Shown here piece after piece: positions 2,797 to 21,535 of a stretch of 36,408 bases of DNA. Position 1 is the first letter of the stretch. Every line of letters starts with the position of its first letter. The stretch is from IMG/VR virus record IMGVR_UViG_3300044966_000589, positions 1 to 36,408 of that record; one strand, written 5' to 3'. Source of the stretch: a virus. Both the position numbers and the translations under genes were made by a program. The notes below the pieces were generated by a model. That model was given only the letters and a program-made list of their open reading frames with translations. It searched no databases and was not told the origin of the DNA.

Positions 2797-3449
2797 TCAC
2801 TCCGACATATCATGCGGCGGCTGGTTCGCGTTTCGAAGTCCAAGAGGCATTTGAGTTTGGAGCGTCTGGAGTCGTCAGAGTGGACCCTGTGGCGGTCCTA
2901 TGTTGCGCGCCTGATTCGGTCTATCACTCGCTCCCTGGAGTCGAGTGCTTCAATGCTTCGCGTGACGTGAGGAGCTTCGTTGGCGGTGTGCCCGTGGTCG
3001 CTCATCCAGTCTGCGCTCCGTGGAGTGCCTATTGTGCCCATCAATGGAAACCCATTGAAGGCGTGCGAGAGCTGGGACCGTTGTGCGTCGATTGGCTTCG
3101 GCGATGCGGTGGCGTGTTGGAACATCCAGCCCACTCCAGACTGTTCGATCACTGCAACCTACCGCGACCAGGTGAAACCAAAGATGGAATGTGGACGATC
3201 GAAGTCAGCCAAGCGTGGTGGGGATATTCGATGCTGAAAAAAACTTGGCTGGTCTTTTGCGGCCTAGAACCCGCTGAAGTCATGCCTACCATCCCCAGCC
3301 GAAAGCATCATCCCAGAAGCGGCGAAGGTGATCGACGCAGACAGCAGCGAATGAGCAAGCACCAACGTGCCGCCACCGTGCCAACATTGGCGAGGTGGTT
3401 GGTGGAAACAGCAAGACGGGCAAAGTGCCCAACCGAATCCACCCGATGA
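2793..3449 (+). CDS. Conserved phage protein of unknown function (Cys/Trp-rich)
   Basis: A 218-aa protein with a recognisable core at about residues 68-165: AHPVCAPWSAYC, then GGVLEHPAHSRLF and WWGYSMLKKTWLVFCG. I know this pattern from uncharacterised phage proteins, where the Pro-Cys-x-x-Trp start loosely recalls cytosine methyltransferase-like folds, but no SAM-binding motif is visible. The last 50 residues are basic (SRKHHPRSGEGDRRRQQR) and could bind nucleic acid. It overlaps both neighbours by ATGA and sits among head and neck genes, where an enzyme-like gene is unusual. Its base usage is more mixed than its neighbours. Function not assigned. Confidence 0.65.
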   Translation: MITPTYHAAAGSRFEVQEAFEFGASGVVRVDPVAVLCCAPDSVYHSLPGVECFNASRDVRSFVGGVPVVAHPVCAPWSAYCAHQWKPIEGVRELGPLCVDWLRRCGGVLEHPAHSRLFDHCNLPRPGETKDGMWTIEVSQAWWGYSMLKKTWLVFCGLEPAEVMPTIPSRKHHPRSGEGDRRRQQRMSKHQRAATVPTLARWLVETARRAKCPTESTR

Positions 3450-5322: not shown

Positions 5323-5733
5323 ATGACTCCCCTCTTCACTTCTGGCACGCGCCCCAGCTCCCTCAAATCCGAGTCCGGTCTTTTCGTCACCGACTTCTCC
5401 GTCAAGCCCACCCGCACCTATGACGACGTGCTCGGCGTCGCCGCAGGCGGTGCCGTCCCCGAGCTGCTCTACACCGAGGCCTACGGCCTCGTCACCGACA
5501 TCACCCTCACCGGGATGCCGATCCCCACCAGCGGTGGTGCCTTGCAAGGCCTCGCCGCCCTGGAGGATGCCGACACCCTCGCCAGCCTCGCCAACCTCAT
5601 CGACGACGAGGTCTTCGGCCTCACCCTCAGCACCGGCACGATCCAAAGCCGTGAGCCTGAATTCAAGAAGGCCCGCAGCGGCACCGGTCGCGAGTTCAGC
5701 CTCAACCTGAAGCACTGCCACGCGATGAACTGA
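5323..5733 (+). CDS. Probable tail tube or minor tail protein
   Basis: A 136-aa protein starting at ATG 5323 directly after a TTTGACAC hairpin. It is rich in Thr, Gly and Leu with alternating strands (GLVTDITLTGMPIPTSGGAL) and a short helix (DTLASLANLIDDEVF). Size and place upstream of the tail chaperone and tape measure fit a small major tail protein, but no signature was seen. Its stop is followed by an ACAGGCT palindrome and a terminator, again marking a single well-expressed cistron. Confidence 0.45.
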   Translation: MTPLFTSGTRPSSLKSESGLFVTDFSVKPTRTYDDVLGVAAGGAVPELLYTEAYGLVTDITLTGMPIPTSGGALQGLAALEDADTLASLANLIDDEVFGLTLSTGTIQSREPEFKKARSGTGREFSLNLKHCHAMN

Positions 5734-5784: not shown

Positions 5785-5815
5785 AGCGCGTGATCGTCCC
5801 GATCACGCGCTTTTT
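5785..5815 (+). terminator. Rho-independent terminator
   Basis: A perfect 11-bp stem (AGCGCGTGATC at 5785-5795 with 5801-5811), a GTCCC loop and five T residues. Confidence 0.88.
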
Positions 5816-5857: not shown

Positions 5858-6637
5858 ATGATTGCCTGGCAAACCACCCGCAACACCTATGAGGCCGCCG
5901 CCCTCGCCTCGCTCGACATCGCCCTGCGTGCCGTCAAGATGACGCACTACAAAAGCGGGGTCGAATACACCGACTGGAACCTCGCACGCACCAGCAGCGT
6001 CGATCCAGATCGGCAGGGTCGCGCCTTCATCACCGGCGTTCTCCGGCGCGATTTTAACAACGGCACCTTGCAGGGAGACCTCGCCACCCAGCCGCTGCAT
6101 CCTTATCTGATCGCCCTGCGCACCATGCACAATCGCTCTCGCCTGCTCGATGCGCAGAAGGGCAAGTCCATGCGCCTCGTGGAAGCCGCGCCTGGCAGCT
6201 ACCTCCTCGAGCACGGGTCTTCAGCCATGCCTACCGAGGCCACCCTCACCACCGCAGATCAAGATCTCGCGCTTGCTCTCATCGGCGTTGGTCATGCGCT
6301 GCTCACCCTCACGCACAACGGCACCGCGCACGTTTATACCCTGGCTCGTTATGCGCTCGCCCCCGAGCTCACCCCAATCGCTCCGCGTGCCGATGCCCAG
6401 GTCAACATGACCGCGCTTCGCACCAACGCCCTCTTTCCCGCTCGACGCTGGGAACCCTTCGCGATCGCCATCCACGCCCTCCATTGTCTGCGTGAGTTGC
6501 GCAAGCACCAGCAGTCGGCCGGTTGGATCACCGTCGCCCACAAAACCTACCTCGACAAAGGGGCCGCGTTCCGCGCCGACGCCCCCGGTCACACCCTTGC
6601 CAAAGTTCAGCAACGCCTCGGCCTCCGCATCGCATGA
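5858..6637 (+). CDS. Hypothetical tail-region protein (259 aa)
   Basis: The start ATG 5858 follows a G-poor leader with CAACCCT repeats and no Shine-Dalgarno. The 259-aa protein begins with a helix-strand pattern (NTYEAAALASLDIALRAVKMTHYKSGVEY), has an Arg/Asp-rich middle and ends KVQQRLGLRIA. No family was recognised. It lies between the tail-tube candidate and the assembly chaperone genes and overlaps the next gene by ATGA, so it is probably a tail structural or assembly protein. Confidence 0.6.
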   Translation: MIAWQTTRNTYEAAALASLDIALRAVKMTHYKSGVEYTDWNLARTSSVDPDRQGRAFITGVLRRDFNNGTLQGDLATQPLHPYLIALRTMHNRSRLLDAQKGKSMRLVEAAPGSYLLEHGSSAMPTEATLTTADQDLALALIGVGHALLTLTHNGTAHVYTLARYALAPELTPIAPRADAQVNMTALRTNALFPARRWEPFAIAIHALHCLRELRKHQQSAGWITVAHKTYLDKGAAFRADAPGHTLAKVQQRLGLRIA

Positions 6638-7380: not shown

Positions 7381-7848
7381 ATGCACCTACCCACCGACCC
7401 CACACCCACGACCTCACCGCCGCCGGTGAACCTCACCGACACCGCGCCACTCATCACCGCCGAGCAGCGCGAGACCGACTTCAATCGTGTCTTCGCCTGG
7501 CATGGCGTTGAGATCGCCATCACACTCGCCAACGAGCTGTATTACCGCGAACTCCGCGTCCACATGAATGCGCCCGCCTTGGCCTCATATGATACCATGG
7601 GCGACTTCGCCCCCGAGGCCGCCCGCGTCATCTACTGTGCGCACCTCGAAGCCGCTGCCATCCGCCAGCTCCGGCTGATGAGTGCCGAGCTTCAAATCGC
7701 CATGCACGATGCTTGGGTCCTGAAAAACATCGCCCTGCATGAGATCGCCGCCGTGTCGCGTCTCGCTCAAGAGATGCAGGAATGCGTGGCGCGTGCCCGT
7801 GCCTCCGTTTTGCCCACCGGTGACAGCGTTGACGGCTCGGGAAACTAG
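7381..7848 (+). CDS. Tail assembly chaperone, G-like
   Basis: The 155-aa protein starts at ATG 7381 after a C/T-rich leader; an earlier in-frame start at 7240 would add a 47-residue stretch without structure. The N-terminus is Pro/Thr-rich; the rest is helical and Ala/Glu/Leu-rich. It lies two genes before the tape measure, where lambda has G. The final codons TCG GGA AAC TAG contain G GGA AAC, a canonical -1 slippery heptamer in the correct phase, right before the stop. A -1 shift reads on into the 50-codon ORF at 7851 to give a 207-aa GT-type product. The gene itself has no family motif I can cite; the call rests on order and the frameshift. Confidence 0.75.
   Translation: MHLPTDPTPTTSPPPVNLTDTAPLITAEQRETDFNRVFAWHGVEIAITLANELYYRELRVHMNAPALASYDTMGDFAPEAARVIYCAHLEAAAIRQLRLMSAELQIAMHDAWVLKNIALHEIAAVSRLAQEMQECVARARASVLPTGDSVDGSGN
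7839..7845 (+). promoter_or_regulatory. Programmed -1 ribosomal frameshift site (GGGAAAC)
   Basis: GGGAAAC is read in the zero frame as (TC)G GGA AAC TAG. It fits X XXY YYZ exactly and is one base different from the lambda G/GT site GGGAAAG. Slipping back by one continues as CTA GCC ATG into the ORF at 7851, in frame. Confidence 0.8.
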
Positions 7849-7850
7849 CC

Positions 7851-8003
7851 ATGCCACCCGTGACCTGCGAGATCATCTCCGACCTCGCTCAGCTCACCGG
7901 GTGGCAAGAAACCACCATCCAAAACATGCCGCTGCATCGCGCCCTCTACTATCAGCTCAAAGCCGCCAACGCCCGCGGCGTGATGTGTCAGTGGACAATG
8001 TGA
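7851..8003 (+). CDS. T-like extension of the tail assembly chaperone
   Basis: A 50-codon ORF that opens 2 nt after the G-like stop and lies in the -1 frame reached by the slippery heptamer at 7839. Its sequence (LAQLTGWQETTIQNMPLHRALYYQL) matches the short Trp-plus-Pro-Leu pattern I know from C-terminal extensions of tail chaperones. Most likely it is made as a fusion with the upstream gene (52 residues added after residue 155), and the extension recruits the tape-measure and tube proteins. Independent translation from ATG 7851 is possible but has no Shine-Dalgarno. Confidence 0.7.
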   Translation: MPPVTCEIISDLAQLTGWQETTIQNMPLHRALYYQLKAANARGVMCQWTM

Positions 8004-8027: not shown

Positions 8028-8207
8028 ATGAATGAACTCCAGCCATACATCAACGGTCCCATCGGCGTCACGCTTGCGTTCCTTGCCCTTGTGTTCGTCC
8101 TGCTCACGATCTTGATGCCTTACTACGTCTTTGTCTGCGCCCGCGAGATCATGCGCACCCGAAAGCTCTTGGCCGAACTGCTGGTCGTCATGCGCACACG
8201 CCAGTGA
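8028..8207 (+). CDS. Small membrane protein (59 aa)
   Basis: ATG 8028 opens 59 codons with one strongly hydrophobic segment (residues 13-38, GVTLAFLALVFVLLTILMPY) followed by a basic, Arg-rich tail (REIMRTRKLLAELLVVMRTRQ). By the positive-inside rule the C-terminus should be cytoplasmic. It lies between the tail chaperone and tape measure genes, away from the lysis cassette. A holin-like or DNA-injection role is possible but unsupported. Confidence 0.55.
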   Translation: MNELQPYINGPIGVTLAFLALVFVLLTILMPYYVFVCAREIMRTRKLLAELLVVMRTRQ

Positions 8208-11527: not shown

Positions 11528-13023
11528 GGCAAGAAACGCACCGCCTTCGCCCGCCACGCTGGCCCACCGGCCTCGTGCCCTGGCGCACTGCGGTGCAGTC
11601 CTTTCTCGAAAAGCTCTCCAAAGCCGCCAAGGTGCAGATCGAAGTCCAAGGGGCCACCCGCTCACAGAGTGGCGAGGATCTCATGCTGGACCTCGGCACC
11701 ATCCCCAGCGGCACTGCCACTGCACAGACCCCAGCGCAGGAGGCTCCACGCTGGCCCTCTGGCCTCGTGCCGTGGAAAATGGCCGTGCAAGCTCATGCTG
11801 AAAAACTCGCCTCCGCCGCCGGTGTGCAGATCGAAATCTTCGGCACCACCCGTGGCCAAAGTGGGGAGCAGCCCGCGCTCGAAGTCGGCAACGAGTTCAC
11901 GGGTGCCGGTGCCCGCAGCACCGCCAGCAAAAAGGACGCCAGCGTCCCCCGCTGGCCCACCTCGCATGTCGGCTGGTGCCGTGCCTTGCAGAGCTTCATC
12001 GAGCGTCTTGCGTCCGCTTTGCAAACCAGCCTCGAACTCGGCGGTGTCGCCCGCAGCAGCGGTGGTGACAAGCTCGTCTTTGCGCTAAAACCCCCACCAC
12101 CACGGAACCTCATCCTGCGGCTCGAAACACAGCCCCAACAAGCCTACGCTTTTTTTTGCGCGAGCATTTTCGATGATGATGGCAACCCTTACAGCAGCGT
12201 CTCGACCACTGAAAAATGGACTGAAGGAGAGATCACATACACGACCACCCAGTCAGAGACTGGACCACACTTCAGCACGCCGACAATCCCGATGTTTGAC
12301 TGCCCCGGCAGCGTCACCGAGGACGACCGCGAGCCGGGCAAAGATTATGGCTTTCTCGAAGAAGTCGAAGAGCCTGAATACACCGGAGGTCTCTCGCAAT
12401 CCTCCCTCCGGCCGCTCGCGCTTAACAACTTAGAGGTCATAGGCGACCCCGATCCTGGCGTGGCCTTCGCCATCACCGCTGACGACGAAGACGACATCAT
12501 CCATGCGCATGCTCACGGTTTGGACAACGGAGACCGCGTCATGTTCCCCTGGCTCATCGGAGGCACAGGACTTTTGGACGACAGAACATTTTTAGGCATC
12601 GGCTACTATGTGATCGATAAAACACCAAACACCTTCAAGGTCAGCCAAACCGAAGACGGCGAAGAGGTGGACATCACCAGCAATATCACCGCAGGCACCT
12701 GCCGCAAAGAAGAGGAAAATCTCACCGCAGTCTTTCGAACCTGGGCAGCCAAAGACACGCCACCGACTGACATCACTCACAATCTCGGCTACTGGGACTC
12801 AGGCAGCTCCGGCAACGTAAAAACAGGTTTTTACGCCCACTCCAAGCGTTACCGCTGGACGAATGACAGTGACAAAGACCTCCGAATCCAATGGAAACAA
12901 GGCGGCATCACGCGGACCCTCACCGTGCCTGCCAATGACTCGAGCGACTGGTATGATGACGAACTGCCAGCCGCTCAAAGTGAGCAAGACGCCATCACCG
13001 AAGTCGAGATCACCGTCCTCTAA
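11524..13023 (+). CDS. Tail protein with three N-terminal repeats
   Basis: A 499-aa protein. Residues 11-58, 75-122 and 142-188 are three copies of one unit, each starting PRWP, then an x-W-x-x-A-(V/L)-Q helix, ERLASA/EKLA, a VQIE/SLEL strand and a Ser-Gly-(E/D) turn; spacers are 16-19 residues. Residues about 326-398 (AHGLDNGDRVMFPWLIGGTGL ... GIGYYVIDKTPNTFKVS) repeat the domain of the distal tail protein at 10061. The C-terminus is acidic with many Trp/Asp. Three homologous units may build a trimer-like or stacked attachment structure. The gene is in the baseplate/fibre region; no catalytic residues were noticed. Confidence 0.6.
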   Translation: MRQETHRLRPPRWPTGLVPWRTAVQSFLEKLSKAAKVQIEVQGATRSQSGEDLMLDLGTIPSGTATAQTPAQEAPRWPSGLVPWKMAVQAHAEKLASAAGVQIEIFGTTRGQSGEQPALEVGNEFTGAGARSTASKKDASVPRWPTSHVGWCRALQSFIERLASALQTSLELGGVARSSGGDKLVFALKPPPPRNLILRLETQPQQAYAFFCASIFDDDGNPYSSVSTTEKWTEGEITYTTTQSETGPHFSTPTIPMFDCPGSVTEDDREPGKDYGFLEEVEEPEYTGGLSQSSLRPLALNNLEVIGDPDPGVAFAITADDEDDIIHAHAHGLDNGDRVMFPWLIGGTGLLDDRTFLGIGYYVIDKTPNTFKVSQTEDGEEVDITSNITAGTCRKEEENLTAVFRTWAAKDTPPTDITHNLGYWDSGSSGNVKTGFYAHSKRYRWTNDSDKDLRIQWKQGGITRTLTVPANDSSDWYDDELPAAQSEQDAITEVEITVL

Positions 13024-17122: not shown

Positions 17123-17686
17123 ATGAGCATCACCGACGACCACTGGCTCGACTCCGCCCTGCGTCGTCCCATCCAAGGCGGCGCAAAAATGCCCGTGCGT
17201 CGTTTCCTCGTCATCCATTTTACGGCTGGAGCCAGTGCCGAAAGCAGCATCGAATTTTGGCGCACACCCGCTGCCAAAGGAGCCAGCGCCCACCTCGTCA
17301 TCGACCGCGACGGCACCGTCTATCAGACCCGCCCCTTTGACCGAACCTGTGGCCATGCGGGCGTGTCCCAATGGCGAGGCCACAAAAACCTCAATGCCTG
17401 CACCATTGGCATCGAACTCGCGAACGCTGGCGACAACGCACCACTCGCACGCCGCTGGTCCAAGCTCCCATTGCTGACCAGCAAGCACAAAAACGGCGGC
17501 CCAGAAACGCAGTGGGAAGCCTACACATTGGCCCAACTCGCCGCCTGCGAGCAAGTCGCCAAAGCCCTCGTCACTCGCTACAAACTCGACGACATCGTCG
17601 GCCACGACGACATCGCCCCAACCAGAAAAAACGACCCCGGCCCGGCGTTCCCTATGGCATCACTGCGTCAGTCATGTGGCTATTGA
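17123..17686 (+). CDS. N-acetylmuramoyl-L-alanine amidase (endolysin)
   Basis: A 187-aa endolysin of the Amidase_2 family, cutting the bond between N-acetylmuramic acid and L-alanine. The zinc motifs are visible: His32 in VIHFTAG, His161 in VGHDDIAP and Asp171 in KNDPGP; Glu98 in IGIELAN fits the supporting acid, and AHLVIDRDGTVYQ is the family's strand. No signal peptide is present, so it needs the holin-like protein for release. It is 11 nt after that gene. Its last 15 nt overlap the end of the convergent integrase gene, with no terminator between. Confidence 0.93.
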   Translation: MSITDDHWLDSALRRPIQGGAKMPVRRFLVIHFTAGASAESSIEFWRTPAAKGASAHLVIDRDGTVYQTRPFDRTCGHAGVSQWRGHKNLNACTIGIELANAGDNAPLARRWSKLPLLTSKHKNGGPETQWEAYTLAQLAACEQVAKALVTRYKLDDIVGHDDIAPTRKNDPGPAFPMASLRQSCGY

Positions 17687-18726
17687 ACGGGGATCACCAC
17701 GAGATGGGCGACGAGCCACCTTCGACCACGAGGCATTGATCTCGTCGTCCTGCGGAATGAGGTGCCCATAGGTGTCCTCGACCACCTCCACGGTGTCACC
17801 CAGCCACTTGGCGACTTTGTAGAGCGACACCCCCTTCGACACGAGGAGCGAGGCAAACGTCCGCCGCAAATCGTGGAACGTGATGTCGAGCTGGCATCTC
17901 TCCACCAACGCATCAAACGCCTTTCGAAAATCGAAACGGTAGCGGTATTTCCCATGCACCACCTTGGGTGCGAGCATGAATGGTTTGCGCAGCTTGTATT
18001 CATCCAGCAGCCAAGTGCGAAACTCATCCGTCAGCGGCACCGTGCGATTGTCGCGAGACTTTGGCTGAAACGTCGTGGTCGCCTGCACATGGATCAAGCC
18101 CTCCTCCAGGTCGAACCATTCCGGCCTGGCCTCAATGATCTCCAATTTCCGCAGTCCAGCGTGCAGCCCGCAAAAAAGCGCAAACTTCAACCCTGGCTCC
18201 GTGCATTCGTCGATCAGTCGCCGCGCATCCGCCGGCATCAAAAAAACCTTCCGCGATCGCATCCGCAGTTTCGGGATCGTGATGCCTGTCGTCGGGTCCC
18301 GCGACACGATGCCTTTCTCCATGAGCCAAGCAAACCACCAGCGCACCTGGTTGAGGTAACTCACGGCAGTGTGCTCATGCCGCTTCAGCCTGCCCTCAAA
18401 CCATCGCACGCAGGCCGTTGAGCCAATGTGCCTCGGTGAGGTAGCCCCCGTGTGGAGCGCAAAACCTTTGAGCACGTAGCGCCGAGAGGAAAGGGTCGAG
18501 GCCGACAACCCCTCACTGGCCTTCGCCGCGAGATAGCGGTCGATCTCCGCAACGCAAGACCCCGCCTCCTCCCGCAAGCGTGGACCCTCCCGCAGGCGCA
18601 GCTTATCCGCCGCCACCATCGCCTCCGCGAGATCCCGGGTGCCGAGCGACTGCCTCTCCTGCGCTCCACCCGGCACCGGCGTCCAGCGCAGCCACCAGGT
18701 CAATTTTTGCCGATACAGTCCCCGAG

Positions 18727-18742
<16 letters not shown>
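17672..18742 (-). CDS. int: Tyrosine integrase
   Basis: A 356-aa tyrosine recombinase that should join attP to the host tRNA-Pro gene. The catalytic set is visible: Arg198 (HAGLRKLE), a Lys near 228, His290 and Arg293 (HDLRRTFAS) and the nucleophile Tyr325 (VVEDTYGHL); the frequent LGH is LGD here (315-316). A SAM-like core-binding region lies at 65-145 and an arm-binding-like N-terminus at 1-50. The ATG at 18742 is followed upstream by attP with GTATGCTAG repeats, so the gene may be repressed by its own product. It lies last in the minus-strand lysogeny block and converges on the amidase. Confidence 0.93.
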
Positions 18743-20677: not shown

Positions 20678-21535
20678 ATGAAACTGGAGACCTTTGATTT
20701 CAACACAGTCCCGGTGCGCGTGCTGCTGCGTGATGAGCAGCCGTGGTTTGTGGCGGCGGATGTGTGCCGTGTGCTGGAACTTGCCAACGTAACCGAAGCG
20801 ACGCGATCGCTAGACGGTGATGAGCTGGATTCAGTAATCATGAATTCAGGTGATCAAGGCCGCAAAACACTAATCCTTTCCGAGTCCGGACTCTACACCC
20901 TCATTTTCAAGAGTCGCAAGGCGGAGGCGAAGAAGTTCCGCAAGTGGGTGACGGCGGAGGTGCTGCCTGCGATCCGCCGGACGGGTGGGTATGCGCTGCC
21001 GGTGGGCAATTCTGCCAGTGAGGGCCTGGAGCTGATGAGTGTGCTGGCCTTTGTGCGTGACTGTTGCGCTGGCTGGCCGCTGGAGCGCCAGATGGCCTAC
21101 GGCATGATGGTGCGCCGCTATGCGAAAAGCATGGGGGTGGTCTTTCAAACGGTCGAAGAGCCGGGCGTCGGTCGCGTGTTTGCTTTTGCGAGGCCGGTGC
21201 TGGAGGCGGTGCGCGGCACGCTGGCACCGATGAGCGGCGTGCTGGTGAATCCCGAGGGACGGGAGATGACGGCACTGCTGCGTGCGCTGCATGAGCAGCA
21301 TGGAGACACTGTGATGGCGGCAGAAGAGGTGCGGCGTGAGGCGGTGCGCCTGGGCTTTTTTCCACGGCTACTCAAACTGAAAAGTGAGATGGCCCGAAGC
21401 AGTGCCTTTGGCTGCCTCGTCGCCCGCTACGCGGGGCAGATTTTAGCGGGCGGGTATGTGATCGAGAACCAGCGCACATCGGCGCGAAGATTTTACGCGA
21501 TCCGGCGGGAGACCGCCGTGGCCCTAGCGGCCTGA
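20678..21535 (+). CDS. BRO-N antirepressor
   Basis: A 285-aa protein. Residues 1-105 match the BRO-N domain (TVPVRVLLRDEQPWFVAADVCRVLEL, then SESGLYTLIFKSRKAEAKKFRKWVTAEVLPAIRRTGGY), typical of phage antirepressors. Residues from about 205 (RALHEQHGDTVMAAEEVRREAVRLGFFPRLL ... SAFGCLVARYAGQILAGG) form a helical C-domain with a winged-helix-like pattern also seen at the end of the helicase protein at 28925. It has a Shine-Dalgarno (GGGAGG, about 8 nt upstream). In an operon with a ribbon-helix-helix protein, it probably helps break lysogeny. Confidence 0.85.
   Translation: MKLETFDFNTVPVRVLLRDEQPWFVAADVCRVLELANVTEATRSLDGDELDSVIMNSGDQGRKTLILSESGLYTLIFKSRKAEAKKFRKWVTAEVLPAIRRTGGYALPVGNSASEGLELMSVLAFVRDCCAGWPLERQMAYGMMVRRYAKSMGVVFQTVEEPGVGRVFAFARPVLEAVRGTLAPMSGVLVNPEGREMTALLRALHEQHGDTVMAAEEVRREAVRLGFFPRLLKLKSEMARSSAFGCLVARYAGQILAGGYVIENQRTSARRFYAIRRETAVALAA

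Follow-up and report, generated by a model that had tools for sequence, protein, structure and literature searches.

A very probable programmed −1 frameshift at a stop-adjoining GGGAAAC heptamer in the G/T-like tail genes of a phage-like IMG/VR record

A pair of short G- and T-like reading frames lies upstream of the tape measure gene in the sequence analyzed here, which is referred to as the window and represents the whole of the IMG/VR virus record IMGVR_UViG_3300044966_000589 (36,408 nt, positions 1 to 36,408). Profile searches revealed matches to a head maturation protease, a P22-type coat protein, a tape measure protein, an integrase, an anti-repressor, a portal and a large terminase, and therefore the window looks like a temperate long-tailed phage. 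The integrase match at 17672–18742 (minus strand) and the anti-repressor match at 20678–21535 suggest that the phage is probably temperate. No tRNA genes were detected in the window by ARAGORN. The features of the locus are as follows.

7381–7848, plus strand: G-like gene of 155 aa, the short form of a presumed tail assembly chaperone; homologues in 14 other contigs (41–99% identity)
7830–7832, plus strand: TGA closing the −1 frame upstream, bounding a shift to 7833–7845
7839–7845, plus strand: slippery heptamer G GGA AAC, in phase; kept in 15/15 contigs
7845–8003, plus strand: T-like extension of 52 codons closed by TGA, reached by a −1 shift; predicted fusion of 207 aa; conserved in 14 other contigs
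7846–7848, plus strand: 0-frame TAG stop directly 3′ of the heptamer; TAG in 14/15 contigs, TCG in L075
7851–7853, plus strand: ATG in the T frame, a possible re-initiation start; only in the window's clade (7/15 contigs)
7852–7906, plus strand: stem-loop 6 nt past the heptamer, with an outer 9-bp stem (7852–7860 with 7898–7906); evidence from fold z, covariation and a synonymous control
8028–8207, plus strand: small ORF of 59 aa separating T from the tape measure gene; absent from L002–L007
8292–10037, plus strand: tail tape measure protein, 581 aa, Pfam TMP_3 (E 9.8e-19)

The G ORF starts with the ATG at 7381, extends over 155 codons and ends with TCG GGA AAC TAG. An earlier note on this DNA had placed an in-phase GGGAAAC directly 5′ of the G stop, and the placement was correct (G GGA AAC at 7839–7845, TAG at 7846–7848). 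Read from 7845, the −1 frame runs through 52 codons to the TGA at 8001–8003, in agreement with the fusion product of 207 aa given in the same note; its T-like ORF of 50 codons is obtained when the count begins at ATG 7851, but not when it begins at 7845. The TGA at 7830–7832 terminates the −1 frame upstream, so that a shift must fall within the 13 nt of 7833–7845, and the only XXXYYYZ motif inside this segment is the heptamer GGGAAAC. The heptamer is present in a single copy in the window (both strands counted; 3.9 expected from shuffles), and the probability of G GGA AAC as the spelling of Ser-Gly-Asn amounts to P = 0.009 by the codon usage of the window.

The conservation of this arrangement was analyzed in 15 distinct contigs carrying the G/T pair: the window, six close contigs from the protein scan (L002–L007) and eight more distant ones (L031, L032, L050, L067, L069, L070, L071 and L075) added via the coat protein, the G alignment and the gene at 5858–6637. 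Left out were L068, a relative by the upstream gene in which no G was found in the following 4 kb, as well as L073 and L076, which end before the expected G. Most other coat-protein relatives gave no G match, and many of them are too short to reach G. No relatives of G were found in the scans of bacterial and archaeal genomes, nor was there a G match in the annotated phage records searched. In L007, the G match starts at a GTG (position 3001) that corresponds to residue 16 of the window's G.

Compared with the window, G identity drops to as little as 41% and T identity to 44% among these relatives. Whether related phages keep the heptamer had been raised in the earlier note as a point that could speak against its reading; GGGAAAC is retained, in phase, in all 15 contigs, and GGGAAACTAGCCATG is present in all six close contigs. 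The codon that supplies the first G of the heptamer varies by lineage (TCG, GCG, ATG, CTG or CCG), so the third-position G is kept and the residue changes. The codon following the heptamer is TAG in 14 contigs. The exception is L075, in which the heptamer and the stem are kept and the adjoining TAG is lost via a CTA to CTC change that is silent in T; TCG takes its place after the heptamer (site at 6539–6548) and the 0-frame stop is shifted five codons downstream. In the seven close sequences, the variable sites of T fall 7/1/14 on codon positions 1/2/3, and by this pattern T is a conserved reading frame with protein-like change.

The same data bear on the supposition that a slippery heptamer stands by chance at the end of an unrelated gene. 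Six in-phase X XXY YYZ heptamers (Y = A/T) were counted in the 21 likely genes of the window (7328 codons), and L032 contains two more heptamers directly before a stop (12401 and 15597), both chance-like, in a scan of 12 sequences. GGGAAAC is, however, the only one of the six that adjoins a stop, and its conservation in all 15 contigs, the protein-like change in T and the conserved stem described below make a coincidence extremely improbable.

A possible start codon is found 6 nt past the last base of the heptamer in 12 of the 15 contigs, ATG in the seven members of the window's clade and TTG, at the position equivalent to 7851, in five others (L067, L069, L070, L071 and L075), so that re-initiation is possible in those 12. 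In the window this ATG lies in the T frame two bases past the G stop TAG. Moreover, an ATG, GTG or TTG occurs in the −1 frame upstream of the heptamer in L031, L067, L069, L070, L071 and L075, so other starts are possible there. Neither ATG 7851 nor re-initiation at it appeared in the earlier note. G and T could accordingly be two separate proteins, T being translated by termination–reinitiation at ATG 7851 and the heptamer being a bystander whose GGGA perhaps acts as a weak ribosome-binding site; TAGCCATG, shared by the window and L002–L007, and the TTG codons of the five contigs would fit such an arrangement. Yet L031, L032 and L050 have no ATG, GTG or TTG near the start of T. The open T frame of L032 is devoid of any of these codons and that of L050 has only one, a GTG at codon 51, in a test that covered ATG, GTG and TTG and leaves rare starts such as CTG possible. 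Furthermore, the heptamer is maintained in spite of the changing first-G codon, and the codons that follow the heptamer and precede the ATG position specify an invariant Leu-Ala (CTA GCC, CTA GCT or CTC GCC). The lack of an ATG, GTG or TTG start for T in L032 and L050 implies that the shift is needed in at least two lineages; by homology with them, the shift is the best reading for the window as well. Two independently initiated proteins are thus regarded as very unlikely.

A mixed output would overlap with the frameshift reading: the window's clade might produce GT by the shift and, in addition, some free T from ATG 7851. The ATG, like the heptamer beside it, is kept in 7/7 sequences of the clade. 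On the other hand, the residue at this position varies among the relatives (M, C, T, A or L), which means that the ATG may be neutral, and no strong Shine-Dalgarno sequence was seen by eye before ATG 7851. We judge the production of free T alongside GT to be rather unlikely.

Downstream of the heptamer, a stem-loop was present in the minimum-energy fold of all 15 contigs. It starts 6 nt past the heptamer, or 7 nt past it in L031, L032 and L071, where the first pair fails. The canonical −1 frameshift signal has an RNA structure 5–9 nt downstream of the heptamer, and the spacing of 6–7 nt fits it in 15/15 contigs. In the window, 7852–7860 pairs with 7898–7906, followed by inner pairs. The fold z values were −5.5 for the window, −4.3 for L007, −3.2 for L031, −3.8 for L032, −4.2 for L050, −5.2 for L067 and −5.8 for L075. 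When 14 distinct rows were aligned, 97.6% of the outer-stem cells were paired versus 35–52% in slid controls. Three of the nine outer pairs had changed on both sides (equalled by 6/500 shuffles) and the covariation score of the outer stem was equalled by 0/500 shuffles, the aligned rows being related and the covarying cells representing few evolutionary events. The measure of further pair types was not significant for the outer stem (60/500 shuffles reached the same value). In the full structure, 95.6% of cells were paired and both sides had changed in 5 of 18 pairs.

Because the stem overlaps the coding sequence, a synonymous control was applied in which the same T residues were randomly re-coded 500 times per sequence. 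Re-codings as stable as the natural sequence or more so numbered 19 for the window (4%), 46 for L031 (9%), 0 for both L032 and L050, 2 for L067, 8 for L071 and 2 for L075. In this comparison, L032 and L050 give a strong stem signal, the window alone a moderate one and L031 a weak one. At the exact position of the window stem, z (400 shuffles) was below that of all 578 scan windows. Of the scan windows, the one closest to the stem (7847, 40 shuffles) came fourth of 578 by z, and an energy as low was reached in 4/578 windows; the three windows outranking it by z overlap terminator-like hairpins at 5785–5811 and, by eye, near 2042 and 2366. Strong intergenic hairpins with T runs were noted at 5785–5811, about 2042–2110 and 2340–2405, and are probably terminators.

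Altogether, the stem-loop 7852–7906 is a likely stimulator of frameshifting, judging by its spacing, stability and covariation. An upstream stimulator resembling a Shine-Dalgarno sequence was also considered and is not proposed here: by eye, L031, L032, L067, L069 and L070 have GGAGG before the heptamer, whereas the window's clade lacks it.

When G and T of the window were searched in PHROGs and Pfam, neither matched a family with a known function, and the same held for ten G and ten T members searched in PHROGs; the best matches were weak and led to PHROGs whose function is unknown (E 0.012 and 0.039). The G profile searched against sequences of solved structures gave one nanobody (E 0.57) and no named relative. 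The structural model of G (pLDDT 80) had weak fold matches to an uncharacterised phage protein (top, E 0.0074) and to N15 GT (second, E 0.36), and in the PDB it matched helical chains of other functions with Z at most 4.2. Upstream, the gene at 5323–5733 is a conserved candidate for the major tail protein, the model of which is poor (pLDDT 45). Downstream, G/T is followed by the tape measure gene, with the ORF of 59 aa between them. We infer that G and T are tail chaperones from this gene order and from the short/extended architecture, not from sequence or fold matches. The small ORF has one hydrophobic stretch by eye, and L002–L007 lack about 259 nt at this place. A hydrophobic ORF seems, again by eye, to occupy the same place in L031; no tblastn similarity between the two was detected at E 0.01.

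Taken together, the locus very probably encodes a programmed −1 ribosomal frameshift making a G/GT tail assembly chaperone pair. Most ribosomes would translate G and terminate at TAG 7846. A minority, paused by the stem-loop 7852–7906 while GGA occupies the P site and AAC the A site, would slip back one base onto GGG AAA, resume at CTA 7845 and add the 52-residue T, yielding a protein of 207 aa with its end at 8003. If lambda is taken as the model, G would bind the tape measure protein encoded downstream, and T, carried by few copies, would recruit the tail tube protein. We infer the occurrence of the shift and its rate, as well as the stimulation by the stem and the chaperone role of the products. 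According to PMC4066793, G_GG.A_AA.C works with low efficiency in E. coli but does occur in insertion sequences; such low efficiency would suit a low-level product, and a stimulator would then matter. For the tail chaperone genes of another family, frameshifting of 6% and 7% is reported from experiment (PMC3711429). The tail chaperone −1 frameshift proposed in the earlier note thus gains support from the conservation of the heptamer and T, the lineages with start-less T, the stem-loop and the tape measure gene downstream.

The slippery heptamer of lambda is GGGAAAG, one base different from GGGAAAC. As in lambda G/GT, a short gene, presumed in the window to encode a chaperone, precedes the tape measure gene, with a slippery site near its end and a −1 extension T. 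In contrast to lambda, the stop in the window adjoins the heptamer, and downstream of it lies a stable stem-loop that is conserved; moreover, no match to a named family was found for the window's G and T. Lambda is likened to the window by layout. The partner of lambda G is the tape measure and that of T is the major tail protein, the products being made at a ratio of about 30:1 (PMC5009743). A closer parallel is the gp18/gp19 pair of Burkholderia phage KL1 (JF939047; PMC3483164), in which GGGAAAC stands immediately before the 0-frame stop and the gene pair sits before the tape measure region. KL1 differs from the window in its stop (TGA versus TAG), its longer extension (264 versus 142 aa) and an intervening tail gene (PMC3483164). 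No unusual fold was found in the 64 nt of KL1 tested (z +0.3); according to PMC3483164, a stem-loop could form. GGGAAAC is also given as the slippery site of the tail chaperone genes of Caulobacter phage Colossus (PMC3556154) and of haloarchaeal virus HCTV-1 (PMC5009743), which belong to other virus groups and are likened to the window by the heptamer alone. The distance from heptamer to in-frame stop is already a predictor in PRFect (PMC10885494). The frameshift is thus of the lambda G/GT kind, a trick already known in phages, and GGGAAAC before a stop is in print for KL1. Beyond the known kind, the present set adds a stem that is conserved, two lineages with start-less T (L032 and L050) and L075 as a natural stop-loss variant. 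A phage group in which G had no match among the annotated phage records searched gains a well-supported G/GT assignment with a tightly bounded signal: 13 nt in which the shift must fall, one heptamer and one conserved stem.

A further hypothesis is that of a stop-coupled module, in which GGGAAAC, weak in E. coli, would be aided by slow termination at the adjacent stop and by the stem, and the ATG of the window's clade would recycle ribosomes into free T. We consider this unlikely and put it forward as a speculation. Heptamer, TAG and stem are arranged in a like manner in some coat-protein relatives with other tail modules (L017, L021, L023 and L024). The adjacent stop is not strictly required, since L075 has no TAG there and keeps the heptamer and the stem. 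Being natural and silent in T, the stop loss in L075 makes this contig a clean test case for the influence of the stop on −1 shifting.

Other stop-adjoining heptamers came from the scan of 12 sequences, which was done by pattern for a heptamer with a −1 extension and made no use of homology to known chaperones. No heptamer directly before a stop was seen in L018, L025, L026 and L036. Four coat-protein relatives with other, non-matching tail genes did carry one; given the two chance-like hits in L032 in the same scan, these sites are leads only. L017 has GGGAAAC TAG at 11609 with an 84-codon −1 extension and no ATG, GTG or TTG upstream or in the first 75 codons. L021 (15437), L023 (15626) and L024 (9977) have AAAAAAA TAG with a 74-codon −1 extension that contains GTG codons. 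The downstream fold z was −2.6 in L017, −3.0 in L021 and −2.9 in L023.
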